NCBI GenBank assembly: GCA_011523795.1
Contig: WTFY01000008.1
Coordinates: forward strand, 134,955-198,954
DNA: 64,000 nt
Source of the DNA: Gammaproteobacteria bacterium
GTDB taxonomy: Bacteria; Pseudomonadota; Gammaproteobacteria; UBA4575
Direction of reading: 5' to 3'
Every line of letters starts with the position of its first letter. The stretch's first letter is position 1. Under the pieces are notes generated by a model. The model saw only the letters and a list, made by a program, of their open reading frames with translations. It made no database searches and was not told the DNA's origin. Shown here piece by piece: positions 2,802 through 48,747 of the stretch. Made by a program: the position numbers and the translations under genes.

Positions 2802-3235
2802 TCAGTTCTTTGGGTCGAATAGGTTACACCATGACTGTTTTTTACCACCGTCATAGGGCTGTCCAAAGCCCACGTCAATCAGGATATTTGCAAGGTTTGA
2901 TCTGTCTTCCAGCAAAACTGTTGCAACGACTCGTCCTGCGTTCTTACCATGTTTTGCATTTTCCAGTAGGACCGTCTTACTGATCTTATCAATCACGAAA
3001 TCACGTGCCTTGATGGCAAAGCTGCGCTCCTGACCACATTTTCCTTTAATCTCGGGGGTATCCACTCCTTCCACCCTGATGTTGCCTTTCCAGATTAAAC
3101 CAAACCCGGCCATATCATGGCTTCAGCCTTGAACGTATTGCTGTCATAAACTGGAATTACTTGAGTTGGTGTAGCAGATAGAAAATAACAGCAGTATCAG
3201 CACTGGGATATGAAAATGTGCGGATATTTTTTCAC
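2802..3235 (-). pseudogene. Thermonuclease-like (SNase fold) pseudogene, two frameshifts
   Basis: The C-terminal part (from about base 3113 down to 2802) reads as an SNase-fold nuclease. It has VEGVDTPEIKGKCGQE, an NAGRVVATV segment and a YDGGKKQSWC end, as in secreted thermonuclease-like proteins. The upstream part of the domain is in a different frame (about 3108-3175: VIPVYDSNTFKAEAMIWPG) and hits a stop within the family's WPGL region. A hydrophobic signal-like segment (HIPVLILLLFSICY) lies in the third frame at about 3175-3225. The canonical DGDT active-site motif reads DSNT, so a metal/catalytic Asp is changed to Asn. Two frame breaks plus this change point to a dead gene. Sequencing error could explain one shift but not the motif change. 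Confidence 0.7.
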
Positions 3236-3281
3236 GCAGGTGTTTGAGTGAGAGTTAAACAGCAGAAAAGTATTTTTGGCT

Positions 3282-3310
3282 AAAAAAAAAGGGGTGCAAT
3301 TTGCACCCCT
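3282..3310 (-). terminator. Rho-independent terminator for the porin gene
   Basis: The inverted repeat AGGGGTGCAA/TTGCACCCCT spans 3290-3310. It is followed, reading the minus strand, by an uninterrupted T tract (the A run at 3282-3290 on the plus strand). It lies about 40 bases after the stop of the minus-strand porin gene. Confidence 0.88.
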
Positions 3311-3352
3311 CTGGTCTTGCGTAATGATTGCCTTTCAACAAAGCTGATCTGG

Positions 3353-4936
3353 TTATTTCCAGCGGTACTGGAGCAGTGCCCAAAACTTCTGGGTATCAGT
3401 GGAGAATCCGTCTTCACTGTTGAAGTCCGCATATTTCACAGCGAGCAGAAGTTTTTTGCCGATGGGCTTGCCCCAAAGTACACCCCACTCGTCTCCATAA
3501 TCAGAAATGCGGTTGCTTCCCTGCATGTATGATGTATCTGTACTGTAGTCATGAAAATTAACGACAATCTTGTTTTTTCCAATTACGTGACCGAATAGAC
3601 CTAGGATTTGCAAGGTAACACTGAAGTCTTCTATGCCACCCAAAGGGGTTGCCGAACCACCAGGTGCCGCGACAAACTTGTCAGCCCAGCCATTGAAGGC
3701 GTGCACTGTAGCCAACGGGGTTTGTAGTGCATTACTGCCGTTACCCCCACCTTCCAAGACTTCATAGCCTACTCTGATTTGATAGGTAGGCTCACCGATA
3801 GGCATAAAGCCTAAGTTATCAACCCGTGTACCCCCGAACCTGACCCCCATTTCAATGTTGTAATAATCATTGTCATCCAAATGGCTCGCTGCATCGTCGG
3901 AGGGATCTTGATTGGCCCATTCAAATTCAGTCAAGATATCCAACGAGTCACTCATTTCGTGTCTGCCTGTCCATCGCAGACCAAGGGTTTCCGAATCGAA
4001 ATTCACTGGACCTACAAAAGGAGGTGCCATACCTGTACCCTCGGGGAACGGGGTTCGTCTGTTGTCTTCAAAATCCAGCAGGTAGGCATAGGCCACCAGT
4101 TTGCCCCCTAGGCTTGGCATCTTGTAGGAGACATTAAGGAGGTGGGTATCATCCATATTCCATTCGTGGAAAATCGAATCTTCTCCAAAGATCCGCTTCA
4201 CTTTGTCAACGTACGTGTACGAGATTCCAAGGTGCTTGAAAGATTTGTCTACTCGTATGGCGTCCATGGATGCATTGTTATTACGCCAGACTACGTCACC
4301 TATCCAGCGGTGGTTGTCGTAGATTACTGTTTGGCGGCCTAACTTGAATGAGAAGTTGCCATCGCATGGACCTGGAGAATTGGGACAACCGCCAGTCGGG
4401 CTTCGCCAGCCAATGTACGCTTCGCTAATTTCCTCAAATTCGTTATCCGGGATGATTGCATGGCCCTCAGTATAGCGATTCATGGCCGGGAGGTTGCCAC
4501 GTATAGGTGCAGGGATTGCCATAACCCCACCGGATGGGAGGTTGGGTGGAAAGCCAAAGTCATCATCAATATTAAATGCCCGGTCAGTACCCAGTATCCT
4601 GTTGAAGTCCGTTTCCAGACGGGCATACCAGCCGTTCCAGCGACCTGTGGTATATCCAATCGCTGTACGCCAGACCAGTGCGTCGGCATCATTGGTATGA
4701 CCGAGCGGATGCCCAGGGGGGAAATCATCCTCAACGTCCTCAAAACGCAGGCGTGTCCAAAAATCAAGCTTCCCGTTAGCAACTGCACCCCCGATATCAG
4801 GAAATTGGGGTTGCATCTTGTGATGAGGGTTGTAGTGAGTGTTGGGGACATCAGGCAAGCCTACCGCATGAGCACCTTGTGCAAGCATCAGCATTGCAAA
4901 GGCCACGAAGAATGGCAGAGGTTTAAAGTAGACCAT
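3353..4936 (-). CDS. Outer-membrane porin, alginate-export-like beta-barrel
   Basis: A 527-residue secreted protein. A signal peptide of about 24 residues (hydrophobic FFVAFAMLMLAQGAHA, likely cut after AHA) precedes a sequence rich in alternating beta-strand patterns such as LDFWTRLRFEDV, WNGWYARLETDF and FKLGRQTVIYDNHRWIG. It ends in an aromatic-rich strand (FWALLQYRWK), as expected for an outer-membrane barrel. The pattern resembles the alginate-export (AlgE-like) porin family, which in many marine bacteria is annotated without known substrate; transport of alginate itself is not implied. The start is supported by a strong GGGAGGAG ribosome site 6 bases upstream of ATG. It is a single-gene unit with its own terminator. 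Confidence 0.82.
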   Translation of the reverse strand: MVYFKPLPFFVAFAMLMLAQGAHAVGLPDVPNTHYNPHHKMQPQFPDIGGAVANGKLDFWTRLRFEDVEDDFPPGHPLGHTNDADALVWRTAIGYTTGRWNGWYARLETDFNRILGTDRAFNIDDDFGFPPNLPSGGVMAIPAPIRGNLPAMNRYTEGHAIIPDNEFEEISEAYIGWRSPTGGCPNSPGPCDGNFSFKLGRQTVIYDNHRWIGDVVWRNNNASMDAIRVDKSFKHLGISYTYVDKVKRIFGEDSIFHEWNMDDTHLLNVSYKMPSLGGKLVAYAYLLDFEDNRRTPFPEGTGMAPPFVGPVNFDSETLGLRWTGRHEMSDSLDILTEFEWANQDPSDDAASHLDDNDYYNIEMGVRFGGTRVDNLGFMPIGEPTYQIRVGYEVLEGGGNGSNALQTPLATVHAFNGWADKFVAAPGGSATPLGGIEDFSVTLQILGLFGHVIGKNKIVVNFHDYSTDTSYMQGSNRISDYGDEWGVLWGKPIGKKLLLAVKYADFNSEDGFSTDTQKFWALLQYRWK

Positions 4937-5293
4937 GGTTTTCTCCTCCCTTGCAGAGTTCTTCTGATCAGGGTGTCCTTTTCTCGCCTGACCGAGTACA
5001 GTATACCGTATCGAAGCCAGTGTTCTCGGAACCTGAACTTCCAGCTGTTAACATAAGCTTAATACTCTATATATAGTAAATATAAAGCCATCCGTCCAAG
5101 ACTTTCTCATTATTGGACCCATAGATTTTAGCTATGGATAGATTAGCAACCATAGCGTGATAAGTATACTTCCACCGATAGGGCCATGTGGGAGCTTCCC
5201 CGGGAATACCTCGTTAGACCCGATACGCAGCCTTGTAGCATGCCCTGGCTGATTTTCACTCAGGACTGGCGGAAACTGCATCGTATGATGCAG
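4937..5293. other. Intergenic region holding the porin promoter
   Basis: An AT-rich 357-base gap between the porin start and the stop of the dihaem protein gene. It contains a CTATATATAG palindrome near 5068 and the inverted repeat listed at 5119-5137. An imperfect hairpin (GGAAACTG...CAGTTTCC, about 5270-5302) overlaps the dihaem gene stop but has no T tract. I could not assign -35/-10 boxes with confidence. Confidence 0.5.
5119..5137. promoter_or_regulatory. Inverted repeat, possible operator upstream of the porin
   Basis: CCATAG-N7-CTATGG, perfect 6-base arms, in the AT-rich region about 180 bases upstream of the porin start. It could be a regulator site; nothing identifies the binding protein. 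Confidence 0.25.
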
Positions 5294-7621: not shown

Positions 7622-7766
7622 AGCATAGCAGATACGCTGTGACTTCTGTAGAAATCATACCCGGTGCTTCAGCAGCTTCAGGGAAATTATCCTGTGAAAA
7701 TGGAGAAGCCTCTTAAGGCTGGTACCACCTTCCCTTGCAGCAAGCTAGTTACTCGACTGGTACAGG
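7622..7766 (-). other. Gap inside the respiratory cluster with weak hairpin
   Basis: Read on the minus strand, AGCCT-TAAG-AGGCT lies near 7704-7717, followed by TCTCCATTTTC. This could be a weak terminator after subunit IV, allowing partial read-through into the three downstream genes. Confidence 0.3.
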
Positions 7767-8126
7767 CTAATGACCGCCATGATGCTCGACGACGGGTGCT
7801 TCTTCAACTCCGAAAAATTCGGCACGCGCAAGATAGGTGTAGTCACCTTCAATGGACATCATGCCCACCAGTACCAGCAAGGCAAGAGGAGGCAGAAGTA
7901 TGGCAGTGATCAGTGCCAGCCGTTCCCAGGCCATGTGCATGAAAATTGCCACGATGAAACCTGCCTTCAGCATCATGAAAATCAGAATCAGGTTCCATCT
8001 GAGGTATCCCTGAAACTGGAAATAGTCTACGAAATAGGAGGCTGTACTGAATACGAACAGCAGAATCCAGATCCAGATGTAGATGCTAAGCGGATGCTGC
8101 TGACCTTCTTCTGTGCTTGTAGCCAT
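7767..8126 (-). CDS. Cytochrome c oxidase subunit IV (prokaryotic COX4-like)
   Basis: A small 119-residue membrane protein with three predicted helices (about 16-34, 46-66, 72-95), matching the prokaryotic subunit IV family of haem-copper oxidases (IFMMLKAGFIVAIFMHMAWE). The start is set at ATG 8126, which has AAAGGG upstream; an in-frame TTG at 8144 would overlap the subunit III stop and has no such site. It ends in a His-rich tail (VEHHGGH). It lies directly after subunit III. Confidence 0.88.
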   Translation of the reverse strand: MATSTEEGQQHPLSIYIWIWILLFVFSTASYFVDYFQFQGYLRWNLILIFMMLKAGFIVAIFMHMAWERLALITAILLPPLALLVLVGMMSIEGDYTYLARAEFFGVEEAPVVEHHGGH

Positions 8127-8137
8127 GATGTTACCCT

Positions 8138-8818
8138 TTACCAAAGATAGAAAAATGCGAAGATAAATACCCAGACGAGGTCGACAAAGTGCCAGTACAG
8201 GCCTGCAATCTCGACAATGTCATACCCTTTTTTCTCATAACGCCCGTTCAGGACACCAACTGCAACATATATGAGGTAGATGACTCCTCCTGATACATGC
8301 CCTCCATGAAAGCCGGTGATCATGAAAAAGCTGGCCCCGAACTGGGCAGCACCGAACGGGTTACCCCATGGGCGTACCCCCTCGTCTACAATCAGCTTGG
8401 TCCACTCGAAGGCCTGCATGCCTACAAAAAGCAGCCCAAACGCTGCCGTGATGAGCAGGAAAATGGCTGTTTTGGTACGGTCGCGACGGTAGCCATAATT
8501 CACGGCCAGTGCCATGGTGCCACTGCTCGTGATCAGCACAAAGGTCATGATGGCGATCAGGATCAGTGGAATGGGCGCACCACCAAAACTCAGTGCAAAG
8601 ATTTCGCTCGAATTGGGCCAGGGCACGGTAGAGCTGATCCGCACCTTCATGTAGCTGACCAGGAACGACGTAAAAATGAACGTGTCGCTCAAAAGGAAGA
8701 TCCACATCATGGCCTTGCCCCAGTGGACCCTGAATACTTCTTTTTCAGCGCTCCAATCCGTAACCAGATCGGTCACGGCATCCTGCGTGGCGGCGACTTC
8801 TCCTGAACTTTGTGCCAT
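8138..8818 (-). CDS. Cytochrome c oxidase subunit III
   Basis: A 226-residue integral membrane protein of the COX3 family. It has about five helices and the conserved FGLLFVGMQAFEWTKL and FMITGFHGGHVSGG blocks, ending in the family-typical YWHFVDLVWVFIFAFFYLW (in parts). It supports electron and proton transfer stability of the haem-copper oxidase core. It lies in a tight operon, 20 bases after a second, divergent subunit III-like gene. Confidence 0.93.
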   Translation of the reverse strand: MAQSSGEVAATQDAVTDLVTDWSAEKEVFRVHWGKAMMWIFLLSDTFIFTSFLVSYMKVRISSTVPWPNSSEIFALSFGGAPIPLILIAIMTFVLITSSGTMALAVNYGYRRDRTKTAIFLLITAAFGLLFVGMQAFEWTKLIVDEGVRPWGNPFGAAQFGASFFMITGFHGGHVSGGVIYLIYVAVGVLNGRYEKKGYDIVEIAGLYWHFVDLVWVFIFAFFYLW

Positions 8819-8838
8819 GTTGTTCTATATCCTTTGAT

Positions 8839-9504
8839 TTACGTAGATAGCAGTAGTGCAAATAATCCCAGCCACACCAACAGCAAAAAGTGCCAGTAGA
8901 TCGTACAGAGTTCTACACTGGTACGGACCTTGTAGACTTCTACCTTGTTCTGCAGCCTGAATACGGTCCGGCTCCAGACCCAGAGCCCTCCCAGAATGTG
9001 CAATGCATGTATGGCTGTCAGTACATAAAAGAAAGCATTGGCGGGGTTGCCAGAGAGGAAATGTCCGGCTTTCTGCAATTCTTGCCAGGCCCACAGCTGT
9101 CCTGCGATGAAGGCAAAGGTAAGCAGGCCGGCCACAAGCAAGTGGACTTTCACGCCGCGTGCCTGATTACGCACTGCCGCATTGCGTGCAAGCTGGAAAA
9201 ATACACTTCCCAGTACCAGCAGAACCGTGTTGAACCACAGTACCCCGGGGTCTGCAAGCTGGCGCCAGTCTCCGAATTCCATGCGCTGGAAATAGGCACT
9301 GGCAAACAGCGAGAACAGTGATGTGGCCACACCAAGAAACACGATCAGGCCAATTTTGGCCGCGGGCACGGAATAGGGTCCGCCGGCATGGTCCTGTCCT
9401 ATTGGACCTTCTTCCGCCCAAGGCTGTACGTTGATGGTCTGGCGGATCAGCCAAAACACCATCGCGCCCATGATAAGGGCCAATACGACCAGTGTTGCTG
9501 TCAT
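8839..9504 (-). CDS. Second cytochrome c oxidase subunit III-like protein
   Basis: A 221-residue membrane protein with about five helices and the COX3-family signature in weaker form: FAFIAGQLWAWQELQKAG, AIHALHILGGLWVW and a terminal CTIYWHFLLLVWLGLFALL (in parts). It is only distantly similar to the next gene, which is also subunit III, so it is an old paralogue rather than a recent duplicate. It sits between coxA (3 bases after its stop) and the other coxC. Two adjacent subunit III types in one oxidase cluster are uncommon. It might replace part of the larger seven-helix subunit III (inference). Confidence 0.85.
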   Translation of the reverse strand: MTATLVVLALIMGAMVFWLIRQTINVQPWAEEGPIGQDHAGGPYSVPAAKIGLIVFLGVATSLFSLFASAYFQRMEFGDWRQLADPGVLWFNTVLLVLGSVFFQLARNAAVRNQARGVKVHLLVAGLLTFAFIAGQLWAWQELQKAGHFLSGNPANAFFYVLTAIHALHILGGLWVWSRTVFRLQNKVEVYKVRTSVELCTIYWHFLLLVWLGLFALLLST

Positions 9505-9507
9505 GCT

Positions 9508-11256
9508 CTAGACCTTTCCTTCGCCCCGGGTGTTCTCACTCGGAGGTTCATTCTGAGGTATGAAATCTTCCTTGGCTCCAGGCACGCTGTAGGAGTAGGC
9601 CCAGCGGTATACGACTGGCAGTTCCTTACCCCAATTGCCGTGTTTGGGCGGGTAGTCCGGAGTCTGCCATTCGATCGAGGTGGCACGCCAAGGATTCCGC
9701 TTGGATTTTCTGCCCTTGAACATACTCCAGAAGATATTGATCAGGAACAGGAACTGGGCCGCTGCCACGACCAGTGCTGCAATCGTGATACTCATGTTTG
9801 CAGCTTGGACACTGTCTGGCAGGAATTCCGTTGTACCGTTGGCATAGTAGCGTCGCGGTACACCCAGGATGCCTATGTAATGCATCGGCAGGTATATCGC
9901 GTAGGTGCCAAGGAATGTCATCCAGAAGTGAATCTTGCCCATGGCGTCGTTGAGCATGCGGCCGGTCAGCAGGGGGAACCAGTGATAGATGCCCCCGAAT
10001 ACCACCAGGAAGGGTGATACCCCCATCACCATGTGGAAATGCCCGACTACAAAATAAGTATCGGAGAGAGGCACATCCACGACCACATTTCCGAGAAACA
10101 GGCCCGTGATGCCGCCATGAATGAATGTGAAGATGAACCCGATTGCAAACAGCATGGGTACTGTCAGGTGGATATTGCCTCGCCACAGGGTCAGCACCCA
10201 GTTATAGACCTTGATTGCAGTGGGTACTGCAATGATCAGCGTGGTTGTGGCAAAGAAGAATCCGAAATACGGGTTCATTCCACTGACATACATGTGGTGG
10301 GCCCACACGATAAAGCTCAGGCCTCCGATGGCCACGATCGCCCAGACCATCATCCGGTAGCCAAAAATGTTCTTGCGTGCATGCGTACTGATCAGGTCCG
10401 AAACAATCCCGAACGCCGGCAGTGCCACGATATACACTTCCGGGTGGCCGAAGAACCAGAACAGGTGTTGGAACAGGATCGGGCTTCCACCTTCATGCGA
10501 CAGGTTCTCGCCCAGCGAGGAGATAGCGGGCATGAAGAAACTGGTGCTCAGGGCTTTGTCCAGCGTCATCATGATTACGCTGACAAGCAGTGCCGGAAAA
10601 GCCAGCAGGCCAAGTATCGTGGCCATGATGATCCCCCAGACTGACAGGGGCATCCGCATCAGTGTCATGCCGCGTGAACGCGACTGGAAAGCAGTGGTCA
10701 CGTAATTCAGGCCACCCATCGTAAAGGCAATCACGAACAGGGCCAGTGATACCGTCATGCATATGATACCCCAGTCGGCACCTGCCGAGCCTTCAGTAAT
10801 CGCTTGGGGAGGATACAGGGTCCAACCGGCACCCGTAGGTCCCTCCGGGACGAAGAAACTCGCGCAGACTACGATGACGGACAGCAGGTATACCCAGTAA
10901 CTCAGCATGTTCATGAAAGGGAAAGCCATATCACGGGCTCCGCACATAAGCGGCACCAGGACGTTACCGAAACCGCCAAGGAAAAATGCGGTGAGCATGA
11001 AGACGATCATGATCATGCCGTGCATGGTTACGGCTTGGTAATACTCATCTGGCTGAATGAAGCTGAATGCCCCCGGGAAACCCAACTGAAGTCGCATGAG
11101 GCCAGACAGGATCAGGGCCACCACCCCGACTGCCGTGGCAGTGATGATGTACTGAATTCCGATAATCTTGTGGTCTTGGCTCCAGACATACATGCCGATC
11201 CATGTTTTCGGATGGGCAAGTTCCTGTCCCTTATCGGCTAATGCGACGTGTGCCAT
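9508..11256 (-). CDS. ctaD: Cytochrome c oxidase subunit I
   Basis: The 582-residue catalytic subunit of a haem-copper oxidase that reduces O2 to water and pumps protons. About twelve helices are visible. The copper-B/haem motifs are present: WFFGHPEVY (His-Tyr cross-link spacing), WAHHMY and the haem ligands in HFHMVMG. The HPEVY pattern and neighbouring residues fit the A-type family. It lies in the minus-strand operon after the subunit II gene and before two subunit III genes. Confidence 0.97.
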   Translation of the reverse strand: MAHVALADKGQELAHPKTWIGMYVWSQDHKIIGIQYIITATAVGVVALILSGLMRLQLGFPGAFSFIQPDEYYQAVTMHGMIMIVFMLTAFFLGGFGNVLVPLMCGARDMAFPFMNMLSYWVYLLSVIVVCASFFVPEGPTGAGWTLYPPQAITEGSAGADWGIICMTVSLALFVIAFTMGGLNYVTTAFQSRSRGMTLMRMPLSVWGIIMATILGLLAFPALLVSVIMMTLDKALSTSFFMPAISSLGENLSHEGGSPILFQHLFWFFGHPEVYIVALPAFGIVSDLISTHARKNIFGYRMMVWAIVAIGGLSFIVWAHHMYVSGMNPYFGFFFATTTLIIAVPTAIKVYNWVLTLWRGNIHLTVPMLFAIGFIFTFIHGGITGLFLGNVVVDVPLSDTYFVVGHFHMVMGVSPFLVVFGGIYHWFPLLTGRMLNDAMGKIHFWMTFLGTYAIYLPMHYIGILGVPRRYYANGTTEFLPDSVQAANMSITIAALVVAAAQFLFLINIFWSMFKGRKSKRNPWRATSIEWQTPDYPPKHGNWGKELPVVYRWAYSYSVPGAKEDFIPQNEPPSENTRGEGKV

Positions 11257-38431: not shown

Positions 38432-38953
38432 TGCCTGGCAGTGGGTACACTCCCAGCTGGTCCAGCTCAAATCGGGTCTGCGATTAAAAAGCTCCGTATA
38501 CGGGATTTTCCGGGTCAACGAAACATGCAAAATCCGGTCGGCGAATGATACTGTTGACCTGATTGCTTGTTCGTGAATATTGTCCTGGAGGCGGACCTGG
38601 GTAAGCAACTGATGCTTGAGTCAAGATTTGGGACGAGGCTCACGGGTTGCCAGCCCACACAGTGTGTGGCGGATTGTCGATGAATGTGTTCATTGAACGG
38701 TGGATTTTGATATGATGTCGTGGCGTAAGTACCAATGCGAGAAGATTGGCACACAAGGTCCCAGCGGAGCTGACAGAATATGCCGTCACCTGCGTGTACG
38801 CAGGCGAATGTCCTGCAGCAGTCGCCCCCGTCAATGCCGGATCTGCGTCCGATGACAAGGGCTGAAGACAGCACGGAACTTTGGAACAGCCCATTTCAGT
38901 GGGTTTCACCAGATCCCTTTGGAATCGCAGATGTGTCCCGGGAGCACCCCCGA
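38432..38953. other. Intergenic region upstream of the RND efflux operon
   Basis: About 520 bases. Contains the candidate promoter at 38688-38716. Open frames here (for example 38640-38990 on the minus strand) match no family and are not accepted. An in-frame ATG at 38780 would extend the channel protein, but the lipoprotein signal argues for 38954. Confidence 0.5.
38688..38716 (+). promoter_or_regulatory. Candidate extended -10 promoter with overlapping palindrome
   Basis: TG-A-TATGAT (38708-38716) is an extended -10. GTTCATTGAAC (38688-38698), an 11-base palindrome, lies where the -35 should be and could be a repressor site. It is 240 bases before the start I chose for the first efflux gene. 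Confidence 0.35.
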
Positions 38954-40522
38954 ATGACCATTCATTCAGGGCCACCCTCAAGGTCGCCATGGTACTCCTT
39001 GCAGGTTGTGGTATATCTGGTCACCATCGTGTGCCTTTCAGCTGCTTGTTCTTCCAAATCAATTCTGCCAGTTTCAGCACCGGCACCGCACTTACCTGAT
39101 AAATTCACCGGGGATCAGGTTGTCGACTCCTATGAACCGTTGGAGTGGTGGAAGACTTTTGATGACCCTGCGCTTGACCGGGCTGTCGAAACCGTGCTTG
39201 CCTCGAACTTCAATCTTGCGGAGGCCGTGGCCCGGGTGGAACAGGCTCGGGCAAGAGCGCGCATCGCGAAGGCAGCAGGGTATCCCATGCTGCAGCCGTC
39301 TGCTGGTGCTGAGGATATCGATACGCCTACAAATTCGGGAATCGGCGAGCAGATTGAGGAAATCGGTCTGAATCCAGAGTTGAAGGAGCAGTTCGGCATC
39401 TCCGTGCCGGACCGGCTGGCCCTGACCACGTATTCCTTGAGCGCGAACTTTTCCTATGAGGCCGACTTTTGGGATCGCAACCGCAACCAAGCCCGCTCCG
39501 CCAGTGCTCAGCATCTGGCTTCAGAATGGGACTATCGTGCGGCCCGCATTGCAGTCGTCGCGGAGACTGTGCATACCTACCTTGAGATCGCATACCTTCG
39601 CCGTCAACTGGGGCTGTTGGACGAGATCGTGGAAATCTTGCGGGAACGCGACAAGCTTACTGCGGCCCGATACAATCGCGGCTTAAATACTGCACGTGAC
39701 CTCTACACAGCCCGGCTTAGGCTGTGGAATGCACAGGCAGAACTCCCTGCAATCGAAGGGCAGTTGGCCGATGCGGAGGGGCGCTTCTGGGTACTGCTGG
39801 GGGGGTATCGTACGGATCTGGCCGACATGTTGCCTGACTCCTTGTTACCATCCGTGACGCTGAGCCCTGTTCCAGTGGGAATACCGGCGGACCTCTTGGT
39901 TCAGCGGCCCGATGTCGGAGCAGCAAGGGAGCGCATGGAAGCCGCTCGCTATGCAGTAGGGGCTCGGCGTGCGGAACTCCTGCCATCCCTGTCCCTGTCC
40001 GGTTCCATCGGTCTGCAAGGTTCGGATACCCACCAGTGGTTCGATGCAGCCCAGTGGTTCAAAAACCTGACCCTGAATTTGGTAGGTCCAGCATTTCAGG
40101 GACAGCGGCTGCGAAATAACGTGAGCTTGGCGGAGACTCGATGGAAAGAAGCCGTTTTCGCATACAAGCATTCTGTCGTTACTGCGGTCAATGAAGTTGA
40201 AGCCGTGCTGGCTAAGCTGGAAACCAGCCAGCGGCGCTATGCCCTGCTGAGTTCTTCTGTCGAGGAAGCCCGCGCCGAGGCGTCCTTCCAGGAACGACGT
40301 TACAGATCCGGTGTCGGGGACTATGATGATTACCTGGCTGCGTCGGAAACTCTCACTAGTGTCAACTCCTCGCTCGTGTCAGCGGAGCACGATCTGGGAT
40401 TCATGCGGCTCGCGCTGCACCGTGCCCTGGGTGGTGCATGGACATCCAAGACGGATTCCACTCAAGCTGACAGTTTGCTGCAGGCGGTGGGCCTGCAGGC
40501 CGTATCTTTATCTACCGAGTAA
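38954..40522 (+). CDS. RND efflux outer-membrane lipoprotein channel (NodT/OprM type)
   Basis: 522 residues from ATG 38954, with GGAG upstream. Lipoprotein signal with lipobox LSAAC (about residues 27-31), then two outer-membrane-factor repeats: WWKTFDDPALDRAVETVLASN (in parts), ANFSYEADFWDRNRNQARSA and a C-terminal ERRYRSGVGDYDDYLAAS. It forms the outer-membrane tunnel of the tripartite pump encoded by the next two genes. Confidence 0.93.
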   Translation: MTIHSGPPSRSPWYSLQVVVYLVTIVCLSAACSSKSILPVSAPAPHLPDKFTGDQVVDSYEPLEWWKTFDDPALDRAVETVLASNFNLAEAVARVEQARARARIAKAAGYPMLQPSAGAEDIDTPTNSGIGEQIEEIGLNPELKEQFGISVPDRLALTTYSLSANFSYEADFWDRNRNQARSASAQHLASEWDYRAARIAVVAETVHTYLEIAYLRRQLGLLDEIVEILRERDKLTAARYNRGLNTARDLYTARLRLWNAQAELPAIEGQLADAEGRFWVLLGGYRTDLADMLPDSLLPSVTLSPVPVGIPADLLVQRPDVGAARERMEAARYAVGARRAELLPSLSLSGSIGLQGSDTHQWFDAAQWFKNLTLNLVGPAFQGQRLRNNVSLAETRWKEAVFAYKHSVVTAVNEVEAVLAKLETSQRRYALLSSSVEEARAEASFQERRYRSGVGDYDDYLAASETLTSVNSSLVSAEHDLGFMRLALHRALGGAWTSKTDSTQADSLLQAVGLQAVSLSTE

Positions 40523-40528
40523 ACCAGC

Positions 40529-41758
40529 ATGAGCAGACTAATGAGCAAACTGATTGGCTACTTGGCCGCGGTAGCTATCATCGTTGGTGCGGGGGCACTG
40601 GCGGTCTATCTTGTGTCACTTGCACCCCAACCAGAGCGAAGCGAACAACCTCCTCAAATCCCGTTTGTACAGTCGGCCCGGGTGATCGCGGGTGTGGGGG
40701 CCATCCCCGTGCATGGTGCTGGAACTGTTCGGCCCAGTGCGGAAATCGAAATTACTACACAGGTCAGTGGCAGGGTCGACTGGATGAGTCCGAGCTTTCA
40801 TAGCGGGGGGCGGGTCAAGGCCGGTGAAACGATCTTTCGCATAGAGCAGGCAGACTACCTGTACCGTCTTCGCGAGGCAGTGGCCGATCTCGAAGACCGC
40901 AAGGTCGCGCTGCTTGAGGCTGAGGAGCAAGCGACTGTGGCGCGCACAGAATACGAGCAATATTCTGGACGACAACTTGAGTCAGGGTCTTCGGTCAATC
41001 TAGCGGGCCCCCTGGTTCTGAAGGAGCCTCAGTTGAAGGCGGCCCAGGCTGCACTGAAACGTGAGGAAGCCCGTGTAGCTCAAGCCAAGCTGGCTTTGTC
41101 CAGAACGCGGGTGAAGGCGCCTTTCGACGGTTATGTGCGTGAGGAGTCGGTGGACATCGGGCAGTTCCTGACAGTCGGCCAGCCTGTCGGGCGGCTGTTT
41201 GCAGCTGATGCCGTCGAGGTGGTCGTACCCCTGTCCGACGCCAACACTGCCATGATTCCTGGGTTGTGGGCGTTGCAGGCAGGAGACAGCAACCGGCGGG
41301 TATCCGCTCGTGTGAGGGCAAGATTCGGAGATGCCAGCTACGTTTGGGACGGTTACGTGGACAGGGCTGAAGCCTCGCTTGATAAGCAAACGCGTACCAC
41401 TGATGTCATCGTGCGTGTCCCCGACCCGTTTTCCGCAGGTACTTTGCTGGACGGGCCCGGTAACCGTGACCATGCCCCTCCACTCCTGATAGGCAAGTTC
41501 GTGGAGGTAGAAATCCGGGGCCTTGTACCGGAGAGCTATTTCCGGGTTCCCCGTTCAGCCCTGCAACCAGGTAACGAGGTTTGGGTAACACGCGATGATC
41601 AGAGGATCAGTATTGTTCCAGTACACATTTTGCAGCGTGGCGATGATGAAGTCTTTGTGACCGGTGCCCTTGAAGAAGGTCAGGCAGTTGTCATCGGCGG
41701 AATTCAGTTTGCCACTGAAGGCATGAAGGTCCGCACTCTGGACGCGATGGAACAATGA
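40529..41758 (+). CDS. RND periplasmic adaptor (membrane fusion protein)
   Basis: 409 residues. It has an N-terminal inner-membrane anchor (about residues 9-27) and a lipoyl/hairpin/beta-barrel plan: GRVDWMSPSFHSGGRVKAGE, a helical hairpin around 110-190, and RVKAPFDGYVREESVDIGQF (in parts). It links the permease to the outer-membrane channel. Its stop overlaps the permease start (ATGA). Confidence 0.94.
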   Translation: MSRLMSKLIGYLAAVAIIVGAGALAVYLVSLAPQPERSEQPPQIPFVQSARVIAGVGAIPVHGAGTVRPSAEIEITTQVSGRVDWMSPSFHSGGRVKAGETIFRIEQADYLYRLREAVADLEDRKVALLEAEEQATVARTEYEQYSGRQLESGSSVNLAGPLVLKEPQLKAAQAALKREEARVAQAKLALSRTRVKAPFDGYVREESVDIGQFLTVGQPVGRLFAADAVEVVVPLSDANTAMIPGLWALQAGDSNRRVSARVRARFGDASYVWDGYVDRAEASLDKQTRTTDVIVRVPDPFSAGTLLDGPGNRDHAPPLLIGKFVEVEIRGLVPESYFRVPRSALQPGNEVWVTRDDQRISIVPVHILQRGDDEVFVTGALEEGQAVVIGGIQFATEGMKVRTLDAMEQ

Positions 41759-44700
41759 GCCGGATAGGCAGTCATCTGGGAGAACCGGCCGGCCCGATCG
41801 CCTATATGGCGAGTAATAGCGTCGCTGCCAATCTGTTCATGTTCGCCATCCTGGCGGCCGGCCTGGTTGCACTGACCGGTCTGGAGCGAGAGTCTTGGCC
41901 CACAGTGCCTTTCAATACTGTCGAAGTCTCTGTGGCCTATCCTGGTGCAACACCAGAGGAGGTGGAAGAGTCGATCGTTGTCAAGATCGAGGAGCAGGTC
42001 AACTCACTGGATGATGTCAAGAGAGTAAAATCAGTGGCGGCCCCAGGGATGGCGTCAGTCCGTGTCGAACTGAAAGCGGGCACGGATATGGGTCGCATGC
42101 TGGACGAGATCAAAACTGCAGTCGGCCGAATCCAGTCTTTCCCGGCTGTGGCCGAGCGCCCAGAGTTCATGGAGATGACCAATCACCAGAGCGTGATCCG
42201 TCTCCTTGTCTACGGGGACATCTCCGAGCGCTCTCTCAAGGAATTGGCATACCAGATCGAGGATGAACTCGCTTCTCTTCCTACAGTGTCATCGGTTGAG
42301 ACCAGTGGTGTGCGAGATTATGAAATCTCAATCGAGGTACCGCAGTACAATCTGCGTGCCTTGGGGCTTACCCTGGCTGACATCGCAAATACGATACGCC
42401 ACGGTTCACTGGACCTGTCAGCAGGCAGCATCGAAACCCAGGATTCCGAGGTGCGTGTTCGCACTCTCGGCCAGCGCTACCACCAGCAGGATTTTGAGGA
42501 GATTGTTGTTCTCAGCCGCAGTGACGGCACGGTCGTGCGCCTCGTCGATATCGCAAAGGTGCATGACGGTTTCCAAGACAGCGATCTGATCATACGTCAC
42601 CAGAATCAACCAGCCGCGTTTGTCGAGGTCTACAGGGCTGACGGCGAACAGGTGATGGATGTCGCCACGGCCGTGCAAGAGCATGTTGCAAATGTGATAA
42701 TCCCATCCCTCCCTGATGGCGTGGGAGTCACCATCTGGAATGATGACTCTCAGACCTATAAGGAACGTGTCAATCTTCTTCTGAAGAATGGCACCCTGGG
42801 CCTGTTGCTGGTCCTGATTGCATTGGCCCTGTTTCTGGAAATCCGGCTCGCTGTGTGGGTGGCTGCAGGCTTGGCCGTATCGGGTATCGGAGCCTTGGCT
42901 GTCATGCTGGCAGTCGATATTGCAATCAATACCATTTCCCTGTTCGCGTTCGTCCTTGCCATCGGCATCGTGGTGGATGATGCGATTGTAGTAGCCGAGC
43001 ATATTCATTATGAACGCAAGCGAGGTACGCCTGGCGTCGTCGCAGCGATACGTGGTACTCGACGCATAAAAGTACCTTTGACGTTTGCAGTGCTTACTTC
43101 AGTCGCAGCATTCATCCCGTTGTTTTTTATACCTGGAGGCATTGGACAGGTATGGAAGGCGTTGCCGGTAATTATTATCGCGATGCTGTTGATTTCTTTG
43201 ATTGAATCACTGCTGATACTGCCTAACCACCTGTCCCATCTGCACGGTCCGGAATGGGCGCCGAAGAATTTTGTCAGCCGGTTCTTTGCCTGGATCCAAG
43301 GCAATGTCGACCGCCTGCTGAACAAATTTTTGGAAGGACCCCTGTATCATGCGCTGCGGTTTGCGACGGCCCAGCCCGCGGTAACGCTGGCGGGCGCCAT
43401 AGGTATGCTCATCCTCAGCATTTCCCTGATACCAGCGGGCATCGTTGCAACGACCTTTGCAGATGTGGTGGAGGGTGATTTCGTGACTGCCAGTCTTGAA
43501 ATGCCTGATGGAACGACTGCGCAAAGGACGTACGAGGTGGCCAAGGAACTGGAGGCAGCCGGACACCGGGTGATTGAACGAATTTCACTTGACCGGGCCG
43601 AGGATGCGCCCCCCTTGCTTTCCGGTGTAACCGTGACGGTTGGCCAAGGGCCGCGTGTCGAGGGAGGAGGGCTTGCGCCAAAACTTTCACTGAATCCGGA
43701 AGCCAATATCGCCACTATCGAATTCAAGCTGTTGAGTGCACAGCATCGGCAGATCTCTACTGGGGCCATTGCTCAGGCTTGGCGGGATGAGGTAGGCATA
43801 TTGCCCTACGTTCGTGGTATTGCCTTTAGCGGCAAGGTCTTTGATCTGGGCAATCCCATCGAGGCGGTCCTGTCGCATCCGGACCCGGAACGCCTCAATC
43901 AAATTGCAGGTTCCGTGGTTCATGGCCTGCGTGAACTGGAAGGAGTCTTTGATGTACGCTCCGATCATACACCGGGAGTCAGGGAGATCCAGCTCGAACT
44001 GCGACCTGAAGCGCGTACACTCGGGGTTACGCTTGAGGAAATGGCTCAACAGGCACGCTCGGCATTCTTTGGCGCGGAGGCTTCGCGGGTGCAGCGAGGG
44101 CGGGAAGAGGTTCGGGTTTATGTGCGACTGCCCGCGGATGAGCGAAATGCCATCACCGATGTTGAGAGGTATCTGATCCGTACGCCAAGCGGGGCTGAAG
44201 TCCCGCTAAGCCAGGTGGCCAGGCTCAAATCAGGTATTTCACCACCCGCGGTCCGTCGTAAGGACGGACAGCGTGTCATCACGGTCACCGCCGACGTTGA
44301 TCAGACTGTAATTACCGGCGGGGAAGCCAACACCATCTTGGCCGATTCGATTCTGGCCGAACTCATGGAGGTGTACCCAGGCCTGACCTATACATTTGGG
44401 GGCGAACAACAGGAGCAGATTGAATCATTGGACTCGCTGAAGCGCGGGTTTGCCATTGCGATGCTCATGATCTTTGCGCTGCTGGCCATTCCCCTTCGTT
44501 CCTATACCAAGCCATTTATCATCATGGCGATTATCCCGTTCGGACTCATCGGCGCGATCTTGGGCCACTTGGTCTTGGGAATCGCCATGAGTGCTGCATC
44601 CTTCATGGGCATCTTTGGTCTGAGCGGCGTCGTCGTAAATGACTCCCTGGTGATGATCGATTTCATCGACCAGAAGCTCGACGAAGGCGTCCCTGCGCGC

Positions 44701-44976
44701 ACCGCGATCATCGAGGGCGCCAAGGGGCGCTTTCGTCCAATCTTGCTCACTTCTGTGACCACCTTCCTCGGGTTCACGCCTCTCATACTCGAGCGTGCCA
44801 TTCAGGCGCAGTTTCTGGTTCCGTTTGCTGCATCACTCGGTTTCGGCATTCTCATCACCACGGCCATACTGATGATGCTCGTGCCTGCACTGATGGCGAT
44901 GCACCTGCACAGAAGAATTCGACGCGATGAAACAAGTACCCTCGCCTCCACAGCAGCCACTCACGCCGCAAACTGA
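41755..44976 (+). CDS. RND multidrug-type efflux permease (HAE1-like)
   Basis: 1073 residues, full length. Twelve helices in two halves with large periplasmic loops. TM4 carries the proton-relay Asp pair in AIGIVVDDAIVVAEH. RND family blocks FGLSGVVVNDSLVMIDFID and FRPILLTSVTTFLGF (in parts) lie in the second half. The motif set fits drug/solvent exporters rather than metal pumps. The substrate is unknown. It is the last gene of the operon. Confidence 0.94.
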   Translation: MSRIGSHLGEPAGPIAYMASNSVAANLFMFAILAAGLVALTGLERESWPTVPFNTVEVSVAYPGATPEEVEESIVVKIEEQVNSLDDVKRVKSVAAPGMASVRVELKAGTDMGRMLDEIKTAVGRIQSFPAVAERPEFMEMTNHQSVIRLLVYGDISERSLKELAYQIEDELASLPTVSSVETSGVRDYEISIEVPQYNLRALGLTLADIANTIRHGSLDLSAGSIETQDSEVRVRTLGQRYHQQDFEEIVVLSRSDGTVVRLVDIAKVHDGFQDSDLIIRHQNQPAAFVEVYRADGEQVMDVATAVQEHVANVIIPSLPDGVGVTIWNDDSQTYKERVNLLLKNGTLGLLLVLIALALFLEIRLAVWVAAGLAVSGIGALAVMLAVDIAINTISLFAFVLAIGIVVDDAIVVAEHIHYERKRGTPGVVAAIRGTRRIKVPLTFAVLTSVAAFIPLFFIPGGIGQVWKALPVIIIAMLLISLIESLLILPNHLSHLHGPEWAPKNFVSRFFAWIQGNVDRLLNKFLEGPLYHALRFATAQPAVTLAGAIGMLILSISLIPAGIVATTFADVVEGDFVTASLEMPDGTTAQRTYEVAKELEAAGHRVIERISLDRAEDAPPLLSGVTVTVGQGPRVEGGGLAPKLSLNPEANIATIEFKLLSAQHRQISTGAIAQAWRDEVGILPYVRGIAFSGKVFDLGNPIEAVLSHPDPERLNQIAGSVVHGLRELEGVFDVRSDHTPGVREIQLELRPEARTLGVTLEEMAQQARSAFFGAEASRVQRGREEVRVYVRLPADERNAITDVERYLIRTPSGAEVPLSQVARLKSGISPPAVRRKDGQRVITVTADVDQTVITGGEANTILADSILAELMEVYPGLTYTFGGEQQEQIESLDSLKRGFAIAMLMIFALLAIPLRSYTKPFIIMAIIPFGLIGAILGHLVLGIAMSAASFMGIFGLSGVVVNDSLVMIDFIDQKLDEGVPARTAIIEGAKGRFRPILLTSVTTFLGFTPLILERAIQAQFLVPFAASLGFGILITTAILMMLVPALMAMHLHRRIRRDETSTLASTAATHAAN

Positions 44977-45168: not shown

Positions 45169-47175
45169 TTAATGAACATTCACGGGGTTTCTGATCTCGG
45201 CAACCCTGAACTTCATCTTCTTGTTCGGTGCTGCTGTGGGAAAGGGGTTGATTCCTAACTTGTAGTTTTCAGGCTCCAATTCCAGTCTTACGTGATGTGT
45301 GATTAGCAGAAGATTGACCATCATCTGCAATTCAACCCAGCGATGCCCCAAGCAGGCATGCGTGCCCAAGCCATAGGGAGAGTAGGCACATGGAACCAGG
45401 TGTTCCTGACGTCCAGGCTGGTAACGTTCGATGTCAAACTTCTGTGGATCCCTGAACAGATCGTTCATATAGTGTGTAGCAGTATGGCAAATCAGTAACC
45501 GGGTTTTGGCGGATACCTCATATTCGTCGATGACGCAGTGATTCATCACGGTTCGTAACTGCCAGGGTATGACAGGGTACATGCGTTCGGATTCGAGAAA
45601 TACTCGATGGGTTATATCAATGTTTGAAGGGTTGAGATCCTCAGCATTTGGCTCCTTTCCATTTCCGAACAGTGAGTCCGTTTCCTGACGTACCCTATCG
45701 TACAGATCAGGATGATTAATCATCGAATACAAAGTAAAAGCCAAACCACTACCGAGGTAGATACTAGCAACCATTGAAGCCACAAACGGGAAAGTGATAT
45801 CTGTTTCAGGAAGAAATTGCGGGTCGGTTCGGTGAAGTTCAAGAACTGCATCAGCAAGGTCTTGCGGTTTACCCTCCCGTTGTGCCGGTGTGTGTGTGGC
45901 ATGGATGGCCTCAACCAGTTGCTGGACTGCCTTTTTAGCTCGCTTCATGCGTGGTGTGGAAAGCATGATTTTTGGTGTCATCCCGGATACATGGGCGTTC
46001 AACGCACGGTGTTCGTAGGCGAGAAGATCGTCAACATAGCTAGAACAATCCACGCCGATCATGAGATGGGAAATCTGGCTGCTAATATGATTCTGGCAAG
46101 CCTTGGTCGCACCGATAATCGAACCCTGCTTCCATTGCTCAAGGGATTTTCGGCAAAGGTAAAAGAGCTCTGGCAGTTTGCGGGAAAGACAGGCACGTGA
46201 ATACGCATTGCGTAATGATTTTCTCAATCGATAATGTTCCGCACCATCCATACCCGGCAATGTGCGAGACGCACCAAATTCACCTTCAAATTGCTTGATG
46301 TAATCCCTCGAACGAAGATAGAACCTTCCTTTTTTTTGAACCCACTGGTTGGTATTCAGACCTGCCAGCAGAAGTACTCGTTGCCCGTTCATCTTGAAGG
46401 GTGCTTCGACAACTGACCCATACTTCTCGTGGACCTGACAGACTGCTTTGGGTATGTAGCCTCTGCGGAAATCTGATATTCGCAGAATATCGGATTTCTT
46501 CATCTTTGGGATGGGCTTGGTTTGAATGATGCGCTTCGTCTTTGGCTTGATTGTGCTCTGCTTAACTGCCTTGGATATGGACTGGCCAACCAGGTCCATT
46601 GAGGCAAGCAATTCTATCCGTTCGACCTTCTCTTGGTAGTCTTCCTCAGAAAGAATGAGTTTGAACCCCTGACATGTATGCATAAGACAGATGAGAATGA
46701 CATCACGAGGTTCTGGAATTATGTCGTTAAGAATAATGTCCAGGATTCTTGTTCTAGCTTCCTCTTTAGATGTGCCGTCTGTCGTGGGATACGTCTTGGT
46801 ACGTGAAACCGACCGTGATAGAGACCAGAACCCACCGGTTTCATATTCCAAGATGCCCTTTTCAACTAATCGGTCCAGTGTAGTAGTGACGATATCTTCG
46901 GATCGTGTAGTGTTCTTTTCAATCCAATACTGGGTGCTGAAAGTGTCTTGCGATTCGCTGATCTCCTTCAATGTGGGATCGAGCATGGAGTCACCGGTCG
47001 GAGTTGCATCAATCAGGCGCAACGAGTCCAAATCGGTGTCAATTCGAAATTCCAAAGCAAGATCAGCGATTACCGCGCCAGCCATAACACATGAGAAGTC
47101 CCAACCCGGCACCATTTCCAGATAGCCGCTTTGCTCGTCAAGCATCAAAAGGACCAGTTCTTCAGTCAATCGCAT
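45169..47175 (-). CDS. GPP34 (GOLPH3-like) domain fused to cytochrome P450
   Basis: 668 residues; the start is ATG 47175 with AGGGAAG upstream. Residues about 2-203 match the GPP34/GOLPH3 fold: LTEELVLLMLDEQSGYLEM, AVIADLAL, DATPTGDSMLDPTLKEI and DRLVEKGILE. In eukaryotes this domain binds PI4P lipid. A Lys/Pro-rich basic linker (about 204-228) joins it to a P450 (about 230-660). The P450 has a C-helix H314/R318 pair, the ExxR motif (E528-R531) and a haem loop YGLGTHACLG with Cys608 as thiolate ligand (Tyr replaces the usual Phe). Helix I (about 464-485) lacks the A/G-G-x-D/E-T motif. Base composition is a little lower in G+C than the neighbours. The substrate is unknown; a membrane-associated lipid is my inference. 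Divergent from the Rieske gene. Confidence 0.88.
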   Translation of the reverse strand: MRLTEELVLLMLDEQSGYLEMVPGWDFSCVMAGAVIADLALEFRIDTDLDSLRLIDATPTGDSMLDPTLKEISESQDTFSTQYWIEKNTTRSEDIVTTTLDRLVEKGILEYETGGFWSLSRSVSRTKTYPTTDGTSKEEARTRILDIILNDIIPEPRDVILICLMHTCQGFKLILSEEDYQEKVERIELLASMDLVGQSISKAVKQSTIKPKTKRIIQTKPIPKMKKSDILRISDFRRGYIPKAVCQVHEKYGSVVEAPFKMNGQRVLLLAGLNTNQWVQKKGRFYLRSRDYIKQFEGEFGASRTLPGMDGAEHYRLRKSLRNAYSRACLSRKLPELFYLCRKSLEQWKQGSIIGATKACQNHISSQISHLMIGVDCSSYVDDLLAYEHRALNAHVSGMTPKIMLSTPRMKRAKKAVQQLVEAIHATHTPAQREGKPQDLADAVLELHRTDPQFLPETDITFPFVASMVASIYLGSGLAFTLYSMINHPDLYDRVRQETDSLFGNGKEPNAEDLNPSNIDITHRVFLESERMYPVIPWQLRTVMNHCVIDEYEVSAKTRLLICHTATHYMNDLFRDPQKFDIERYQPGRQEHLVPCAYSPYGLGTHACLGHRWVELQMMVNLLLITHHVRLELEPENYKLGINPFPTAAPNKKMKFRVAEIRNPVNVH

Positions 47176-47214
47176 CGTTCTTCCCTTGCTGCAAGAGTTT
47201 AACAAAAGGATTTA

Positions 47215-47673: not shown

Positions 47674-48747
47674 ATGCAGACAAGTCAAACCGAGTGCAAT
47701 GACCTTTCCTTACTTTTCCCGTTCCCCGAGGGGTGGTATTTCGTAGCCAGCCGTCGATCCATACTGAAGGAAAGACTGATTCAAAAGACTTGGCTGGGTG
47801 AGCAAATCGTTGTTTGGTGCGATGAGGAAGGACGTATCTGCATGTCTGAGTCGGTATGCCCGCATATGGGTTCTGAACTGGGACCTGCTACCGGGGGCCG
47901 TGTACGCAACGGTTGCCTCGTGTGTCCTTTTCATGGTTTCGAGTACGATGTAACCGGCCAGTGTGTTGCCACCCCCTTTGCCCCGGCACCCAAGTCCGCC
48001 AAGCTGAAGGTGTTCGAAACACGGGAACTGCTTGGTCTCGTCTTCGCTTGGTGGGGGAATGGTGGACAGTCTCCTCGGTGGAGTCTTCCCGAAGATCCAA
48101 CCACTGGGCCTGACTGGGGCGAACTGGAATTTCGAAGTATGCGGTTCCCTGGCCATCCCCAGGAAACCACCGAAAATGCCGTGGACCTGGCGCACCTGAG
48201 GTACGTGCATGGTTACAGCAATGTGAGCCGGACAGCATCGGTATCGGTAAAAGGTGCCTGCCTTGAAAGCTGCTTTGACTTTAAACGGAGACAGAACATA
48301 GCAGGTATCATGAGATTTATGTTTGATGTTTCTGCCACCACCCACGTCTTTGGGCTGGGATACTCATTCGTGCAGATCCATGAGCGTACCCTTGGTATGG
48401 ATGCGCGCCTGTGGGTACTCGCAACGCCTGTCGATGGCAAGTTCATAGACTTGGTGTTGGTCGGGCAGTTGCGGGAATTACGCAAACCGAAGCGACCGAT
48501 CATTGGCATGCGATTTTTTCCTGTAGGTTTGCGTACCAGGATCATGGGCAAAATACTCGCGTCCGTGCAAAAGCGCGACGTTTTGCAGGATGTGGCAATT
48601 TGGAGCAGAAAACAGTATAGAGCTCACCCTCAGCTGTGTCGGTCTGACGGGGAGATTGCAATCTATCGACGCTATTGCGAACAATTCTATCCAGCTCGAC
48701 CGGATGGAATTCAGAACAGACGTAAGCTGCAGTCTGTACGGGTATAG
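47674..48747 (+). CDS. Rieske non-haem iron oxygenase
   Basis: 357 residues. The N-terminal Rieske [2Fe-2S] domain has CPH (C62, H64) and CPFH (C84, H87). The catalytic domain has the iron-binding ENAVDLAHLRYVHG with D171, H174 and H179. The layout resembles single-component-type oxygenases acting on sterols or other bulky hydrophobic substrates (KshA, cholesterol 7-desaturase and related groups); an exact substrate cannot be given. A reductase partner is not visible nearby. Divergent from the GPP34-P450 gene. Confidence 0.9.
   Translation: MQTSQTECNDLSLLFPFPEGWYFVASRRSILKERLIQKTWLGEQIVVWCDEEGRICMSESVCPHMGSELGPATGGRVRNGCLVCPFHGFEYDVTGQCVATPFAPAPKSAKLKVFETRELLGLVFAWWGNGGQSPRWSLPEDPTTGPDWGELEFRSMRFPGHPQETTENAVDLAHLRYVHGYSNVSRTASVSVKGACLESCFDFKRRQNIAGIMRFMFDVSATTHVFGLGYSFVQIHERTLGMDARLWVLATPVDGKFIDLVLVGQLRELRKPKRPIIGMRFFPVGLRTRIMGKILASVQKRDVLQDVAIWSRKQYRAHPQLCRSDGEIAIYRRYCEQFYPARPDGIQNRRKLQSVRV

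Follow-up and report, generated by a model that had tools for sequence, protein, structure and literature searches.

The eukaryotic proteins GOLPH3 and Vps74, which belong to the GPP34 fold family (PF05719), bind Golgi enzymes; in bacteria the role of GPP34 is, to our knowledge, almost unknown. A GOLPH3-like protein of Streptomyces, SCO4440, is one bacterial member (PMC12402492). Steroid gene clusters are known from sponge symbionts of many phyla, where they comprise ERG24-CYP51-OSC operons, sterol methyltransferase and SdmA/B genes and show horizontal transfer (Kelly et al. 2022, PMC9531527; Brown et al. 2023, PMC10070321). The origin of the unusual sponge sterols bears on symbiosis and on how sponge-type steranes in the rock record are interpreted (Brown et al. 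2023, PMC10070321).

Here we analyzed a window of 64,000 nucleotides from a gammaproteobacterial contig (WTFY01000008.1), in which a single gene encodes a GPP34 domain fused to a cytochrome P450. The features to which we refer are as follows (window coordinates).

38780..40522, plus strand: outer-membrane efflux protein (OEP) of the RND exporter
40529..41758, plus strand: HlyD-type membrane fusion protein (MFP) of the RND exporter
41755..44976, plus strand: RND (AcrB-family) permease, with near-full-length copies 68–87% identical beside the fusion in other phyla
45169..47175, minus strand: GPP34-P450 fusion gene, 668 residues, with an alternative TTG start at 47205
46558..47169, minus strand: GPP34 (GOLPH3-type) domain, residues 3–206, net charge −18, PI4P-binding arginines absent
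46480..46557, minus strand: basic Lys/Pro-rich linker, residues 207–232, net charge +8, positive in all homologues
45241..46446, minus strand: cytochrome P450 domain, residues 244–645, nearest solved folds sterol P450s (CYP51-fx, CYP46A1, CYP51)
45718..45795, minus strand: I helix, residues 461–486, containing VASMVASIYLGSGLAF, one residue shorter than in orthodox relatives, acid-alcohol pair lost
45583..45594, minus strand: ExxR motif, residues 528–531, invariant in 40/40 homologues
45346..45378, minus strand: haem loop PYGLGTHACLG, residues 600–610, Cys608 invariant in 40/40
47674..48747, plus strand: KshA-like Rieske oxygenase, 357 residues, partner of the fusion in most genomes

The open reading frame starts with the ATG at 47175 and its stop ends at 45169; use of the in-frame TTG would yield a protein longer by 10 residues. 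The sequence-only reading had recognized the motifs of both domains and a basic linker between them, and all are present (DATPTGD at residues 56–62, LVEKG at 103–107, ExxR, and Cys608 in the haem loop). Both Pfam profiles matched far above their cut-offs: GPP34 yielded 116.9 bits (cut-off 29.1; profile positions 1–200 of 201) and p450 (PF00067) 122.3 bits over residues 244–645 (cut-off 22.8). As predicted by AlphaFold2 with 40 homologues, both domains fold with confidence (mean pLDDT 85.8, pTM 0.77), the low-confidence parts being the linker at residues 209–217 and residues 22–24. A scan of one genome per species returned 45 loci with relatives at 41–80% identity, most of them full-length; its two peptide patterns were derived from an alignment of four sequences, so the family may have members that it did not recover. 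The frame is intact in 44 full-length rows, which include a few duplicates (same gene fetched twice), and in 5 cut-off rows. Recovery of the intact fusion from other genomes, on more than 40 independent contigs, rules out the frameshift or assembly join that had been named as a threat to the reading. The GPP34-P450 fusion is real. No paper on a GPP34-P450 was found in the literature searched (many GPP34 matches concern the Bt toxin name Gpp34), and there the earlier statement that no role has been described for the fusion holds. A promoter scan revealed nothing above chance. A 15-pair inverted repeat at 46467–46499 lies within the coding sequence, near where the linker ends, and may have arisen by chance from that sequence.

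The P450 part carries the hallmarks of the superfamily: E528, R531 and C608 are invariant in 40/40 homologues, and the phenylalanine of FxxGxxxCxG is replaced by tyrosine in 27/40. In the fold comparison, CYP51, including the CYP51-ferredoxin of Methylococcus capsulatus, ranked at the top (Z 36.3). The PDB fold lists were filled by P450s, which makes the absence of GPP34 from them uninformative.

The I helix of the P450 part reads A-S-I-Y-L-G-S compared with A-G-L-D-T-A-A in orthodox relatives. Between the shared PE(T/S) and the later (H/N)P the window protein is one residue shorter than the distant relative L125; the alignment places this deletion at the acid of the acid-alcohol pair and pairs the threonine with Tyr473, which is invariant in 40/40 homologues. 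The AGx[DE]T pair of orthodox P450 monooxygenases is thus absent. Other P450s of the same genome, which served as controls, keep AGQHTS or AFETT, and D-T or E-T is retained in the distant GPP34-P450s, in a Planktothrix P450 and in an unfused gammaproteobacterial P450, so that the simplest reading places the loss on the fusion branch, as a derived state. The CYP51 signature AG[HQ]HTS is also absent from the fusion and present in the P450 of the genome's own sterol operon. The loss of the pair together with the invariant Tyr473 suggests altered chemistry: with the proton relay missing, the reaction would be other than plain O2-driven hydroxylation, or the relay would be replaced by the substrate or by Tyr473. 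In an alternative view, the P450 would be a haem protein that is not a monooxygenase or not a catalyst at all; it could be isomerase-like, use peroxide or sense sterols, and GPP34 would be its output or docking domain. A pair lost by a one-residue deletion and a Thr-to-Tyr exchange in every member, next to invariant ExxR and Cys, would fit such a protein, but the match to the CYP152 peroxygenase NCBIfam model is weak (25 bits; cut-off 600), and the conservation of the haem machinery and the presence of a Rieske partner suggest catalysis. We consider this alternative unlikely.

As judged from a search with the P450 part in 27 genomes, the fused P450s are one family of their own. Intact matches above 29% identity sit in frames of ∼660–1014 residues and one of 559 residues, the exceptions being short fragments at 67–77% identity in one fragmented assembly; unfused P450s begin at 29% identity or below. 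The distant members L123, L124 and L125 (31–34% identity) have GPP34 above cut-off too. Searches of viral contigs and plasmids found no fusion; the best unfused plasmid match to the P450 part is the Planktothrix P450 (3e-43), whose triterpene-type cluster also holds squalene synthase, a squalene-cyclase-type gene and several P450s.

The neighbors of the fusion recur across genomes and consist of the RND permease with its MFP and OEP, the KshA-like Rieske oxygenase (52–81% identity) and a sterol methyltransferase. The Rieske protein of the window yielded 85.7 bits for KshA_C and 62 bits for Rieske and matches KshA in the PDB at 1e-22, which identifies it as KshA-like. Its assignment as SdmA (NCBIfam NF052579) was rejected at 32.5 bits against a cut-off of 600; the SdmA-like protein of the genome's sterol operon, at 390 bits, is also below that cut-off. 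In L056, L052, L057 and L074 the Rieske gene lies 12–63 bp upstream of the fusion on the same strand. Homologues of the window Rieske (E<1e-40) occur in 33/39 fusion genomes versus 0/367 sampled genomes without the fusion, numbers that are descriptive because the 39 genomes were recovered by way of the fusion and are in part relatives of one another. In the class sample (369 Gammaproteobacteria) such a homologue is seen only in the window's genome, the other carrier, G220, being without one. Two Chloroflexota loci, L055 and L072, have MMPL genes near 9075 beside the fusion, and no RND gene was found in the stretch examined; in L067, a transporter of this MMPL family matches a sterol-sensing domain model.

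The fusion is nearly always accompanied by sterol-related genes, and sterol genes of several kinds are found at the fusion loci. A methyltransferase of the Sterol_MT_C type lies beside the fusion in 14 loci, SdmB-SdmA-ERG24 in L046, L048 and L049, and squalene epoxidase with oxidosqualene cyclase (OSC) in G074 and G077; an MMPL protein with a sterol-sensing domain is also among the neighbors. The window's own locus has no adjacent de novo sterol gene; the sterol operon of this genome resides on another contig and encodes SdmB (303 bits), SdmA (390 bits), osq_cycl (718 bits), ERG4_ERG24 (233 bits), a CYP51-like P450 (AGQHTS I helix) and Sterol_MT_C. Inside it, a frame of 1130 residues (L097 6677–10069, minus strand; C18 of the genome) joins squalene epoxidase to OSC; long frames with both parts are present in at least 10 other fusion genomes, and no report of such a fusion turned up in the literature searched. 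OSC matches above 500 bits were obtained in 16/39 fusion genomes versus 6/369 Gammaproteobacteria, with both fusion carriers among the 6 (Fisher p = 2.2e-4); these numbers are likewise descriptive. The genus mate G004 has a partial cyclase at a contig edge. Many fusion genomes, comprising most Acidobacteriota and Latescibacterota, have no OSC and would need imported sterol. The sequence-only reading had the P450 acting on a membrane lipid, a suggestion that is now well supported by the sterol gene context.

A KshA-like Rieske oxygenase could equally point to steroid catabolism or detoxification, in which host steroids would be oxidized by the Rieske protein and the P450 on the way to degradation, with the RND pump removing toxic steroids from the cell. 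Bacteria that degrade steroids abound in sponges, where sponge-specific KshA clusters are also seen (PMC5790920), and the many fusion genomes without OSC are consistent with this view. No ring-cleavage or side-chain degradation genes were recognized in the local neighborhoods of the fusion, however, and the recurrent neighbors are biosynthetic (sterol methyltransferase, SdmA/B, ERG24, squalene epoxidase-OSC), which leaves catabolism unlikely. Alternatively, the P450 might act on a non-sterol lipid such as a hopanoid, carotenoid or fatty acid, with the sterol linkage incidental to life in sponges. Fatty-acid and retinoid P450 folds score almost as high as sterol P450s (VIA-align Z values of 35 vs 36), and three fusion genomes have hopene-cyclase-like matches only, without squalene epoxidase; against this, the fusion is physically linked to sterol genes time and again, in independent loci of several phyla, and its association with OSC also stands in the even class sample, so that we give this alternative little credence.

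The GPP34 domain had been proposed to act as a lipid anchor of the GOLPH3 kind, and this part of the earlier reading is not supported as stated. Using phmmer, the N-terminal domain matches human GOLPH3 (3kn1) at 1.5e-6. The PI4P pocket of GOLPH3, which we take to be formed by R90, R171 and R174 (numbering checked on chain 9qpq), aligns with A32, E93 and V96 of the fusion. Among 40 homologues these three columns are occupied by A/V/I, E/D/S and V/I/S/N/G/L, with Arg or Lys in 0/40, leaving PI4P-type binding through conserved residues unsupported. The domain is moreover strongly acidic (net charge −13 to −26 across the family, mean −19), a property that argues against a plain anionic-lipid anchor; with the arginines absent as well, a simple lipid-head-group anchor is not supported. 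The P450 domain carries a net charge of ∼+7, and a 36-residue stretch at the linker averages +6 over the 40 homologues vs −0.5 when every 36-residue window of these proteins is averaged; the basic linker and the P450 could thus touch the membrane. Averaged over 19 residues, hydropathy peaks at 2.04 across the family and at 1.68 in the window protein, values that indicate no clear transmembrane helix. Elsewhere GPP34 is fused to MFS transporters and to a protein with four transmembrane helices, neither of which needs an anchor, and a general docking or scaffolding role is at least as likely as anchoring. We consider it most likely that GPP34 with its basic linker serves to dock the P450, either on partner proteins or on the surface of the membrane. 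That GPP34 is a mere evolutionary hitch-hiker or folding aid without a lipid role would agree with its acidity, its lack of the PI4P arginines and its fusion to proteins already in the membrane, but is hard to credit for a domain that no intact member lacks despite large divergence and in which many residues (such as W25, G33 and D66) are invariant.

Other GPP34 genes were seen along the way. The second GPP34 protein of the window's genome (L023 11928–13109, minus strand) combines GPP34 with a membrane domain of about four transmembrane helices and a conserved His, and its gene lies directly upstream of one for a multihaem cytochrome c with many CxxCH motifs (L023 10430–11917, minus strand); the pair is conserved in G001 and G003, and the GPP34-membrane part also occurs in G220. 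The gammaproteobacterium G035 has five GPP34 genes, among them N-terminal GPP34 fusions to transporters that appear MFS-like by eye (L024 7462–9327 and L025 5607–7514). L025 also holds a further, apparently frameshift-split GPP34-MFS gene (7757–8506 and 8376–9623) and a GPP34 followed by a domain that appears CYTH-like by eye (9882–11135).

Carriers of the fusion belong to the Gamma- and Alphaproteobacteria, Acidobacteriota, Rhodothermota, Latescibacterota, Chloroflexota and Gemmatimonadota. Within the window's genus the fusion was found in G000, G001, G002 and G003 (identity to the window protein 77% for G001, 45% for G002 and 80% for G003); it was not found in the genus mate G004 nor in the other family members sampled. 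Among 398 evenly drawn Pseudomonadota genomes, only the window's own has a full-length fusion, and GPP34 is above cut-off in 8/369 Gammaproteobacteria, two of which (G000, G220) have the fusion. As to habitat, the SB06xx records are presumably Ircinia MAGs, one record title says sponge, and many record names point to marine-sponge symbionts. The record prefixes RHO, COS, IRC and APA are consistent with host sponges in Robbins et al. (PMC8163846). The fusion bacteria thus appear to live mostly in marine sponges; roughly half of the loci have good support for the label of sponge symbiont, which we infer for the remaining ones (jk18, p16, Plut and others).

The tree of the fusion has three main groups in which phyla are mixed. 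Horizontal transfer of steroid genes has already been reported for sponge symbionts (PMC9531527). In the window's genus, G000, G001 and G003 have one form (A) and G002 (L056) another (B), both in the interval that separates the RND operon from transketolase, while the adjacent Rieske proteins group by genus. The same split is seen in Porisulfidus (L034 vs L057/L074). In the acidobacterium L061 both forms (2927–4948 and 8287–10353) flank one RND gene, and related species have form A or form B at this place. The slot thus stays while the P450 form changes, either because forms were exchanged or because one of an ancestral pair was lost, and the Rieske oxygenase, P450 and RND exporter are most likely a transferable module.

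Taken together, we propose with moderate confidence that the fusion is a sterol-tailoring P450 with a built-in N-terminal GPP34 module that works with the Rieske oxygenase and the exporter, and that it probably makes unusual sterols at the bacterial membrane. The substrate would be a sterol, either made by the symbiont or derived from the host; the P450 and the Rieske oxygenase would act on it in turn at the inner membrane, and the product would leave through the RND pump. The sterol link is supported by several independent lines; the reaction, the flow of substrate and the role of GPP34 are inferred. A bolder proposal, which we offer tentatively and would not yet expect to hold, is that a new P450 family with obligate GPP34 and an acid-alcohol pair deleted in favor of an invariant tyrosine performs an unseen sterol step in sponge symbionts and has moved among phyla in company with the Rieske oxygenase and RND exporter; some of the unusual sterols now attributed to sponges would then be made and exported by bacteria.

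In the steroid clusters known from symbionts, the genes account for nucleus synthesis and side-chain methylation; the module adds two oxygenases and an exporter, which travel together across phyla. Its occurrence in genomes without a sign of sterol synthesis points to the tailoring of shared or host sterols. The fused P450 also offers a natural case in which the proton relay is removed by a one-residue deletion, for which the orthodox GPP34-P450 relatives are controls.

Compared with the described systems, the locus shows both likeness and difference. CYP51 is the top profile match to the P450 part (2.5e-27) as well as the top structure, and the sterol gene context agrees; the fusion is, however, only ∼18% identical to CYP51, lacks the AGHHT/AGQHTS I helix and coexists with a separate CYP51-like P450 in the window's genome. 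The CYP51-ferredoxin of Methylococcus capsulatus is likewise a fused bacterial P450, but its partner is a ferredoxin instead of GPP34. The neighboring Rieske protein has the KshA_C and Rieske domains of KshA, the oxygenase of 3-ketosteroid 9alpha-hydroxylase, and is paired in the local region with a P450 and an exporter rather than with genes of 9,10-seco degradation. SCO4440 is a bacterial GPP34 protein like the fusion but without a P450, and whereas GOLPH3 and Vps74 bind Golgi enzymes, the GPP34 domain described here is itself joined to an enzyme, is strongly acidic and lacks the counterparts of R90, R171 and R174; the fusion thereby gives bacterial GPP34 a biochemical setting. The accounts of sponge-symbiont steroid clusters make no mention of GOLPH3 or Rieske (Kelly et al. 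2022, PMC9531527) or of P450, Rieske or GOLPH3 (Brown et al. 2023, PMC10070321), and the module of Rieske oxygenase, GPP34-P450 and RND exporter is an addition to these clusters.
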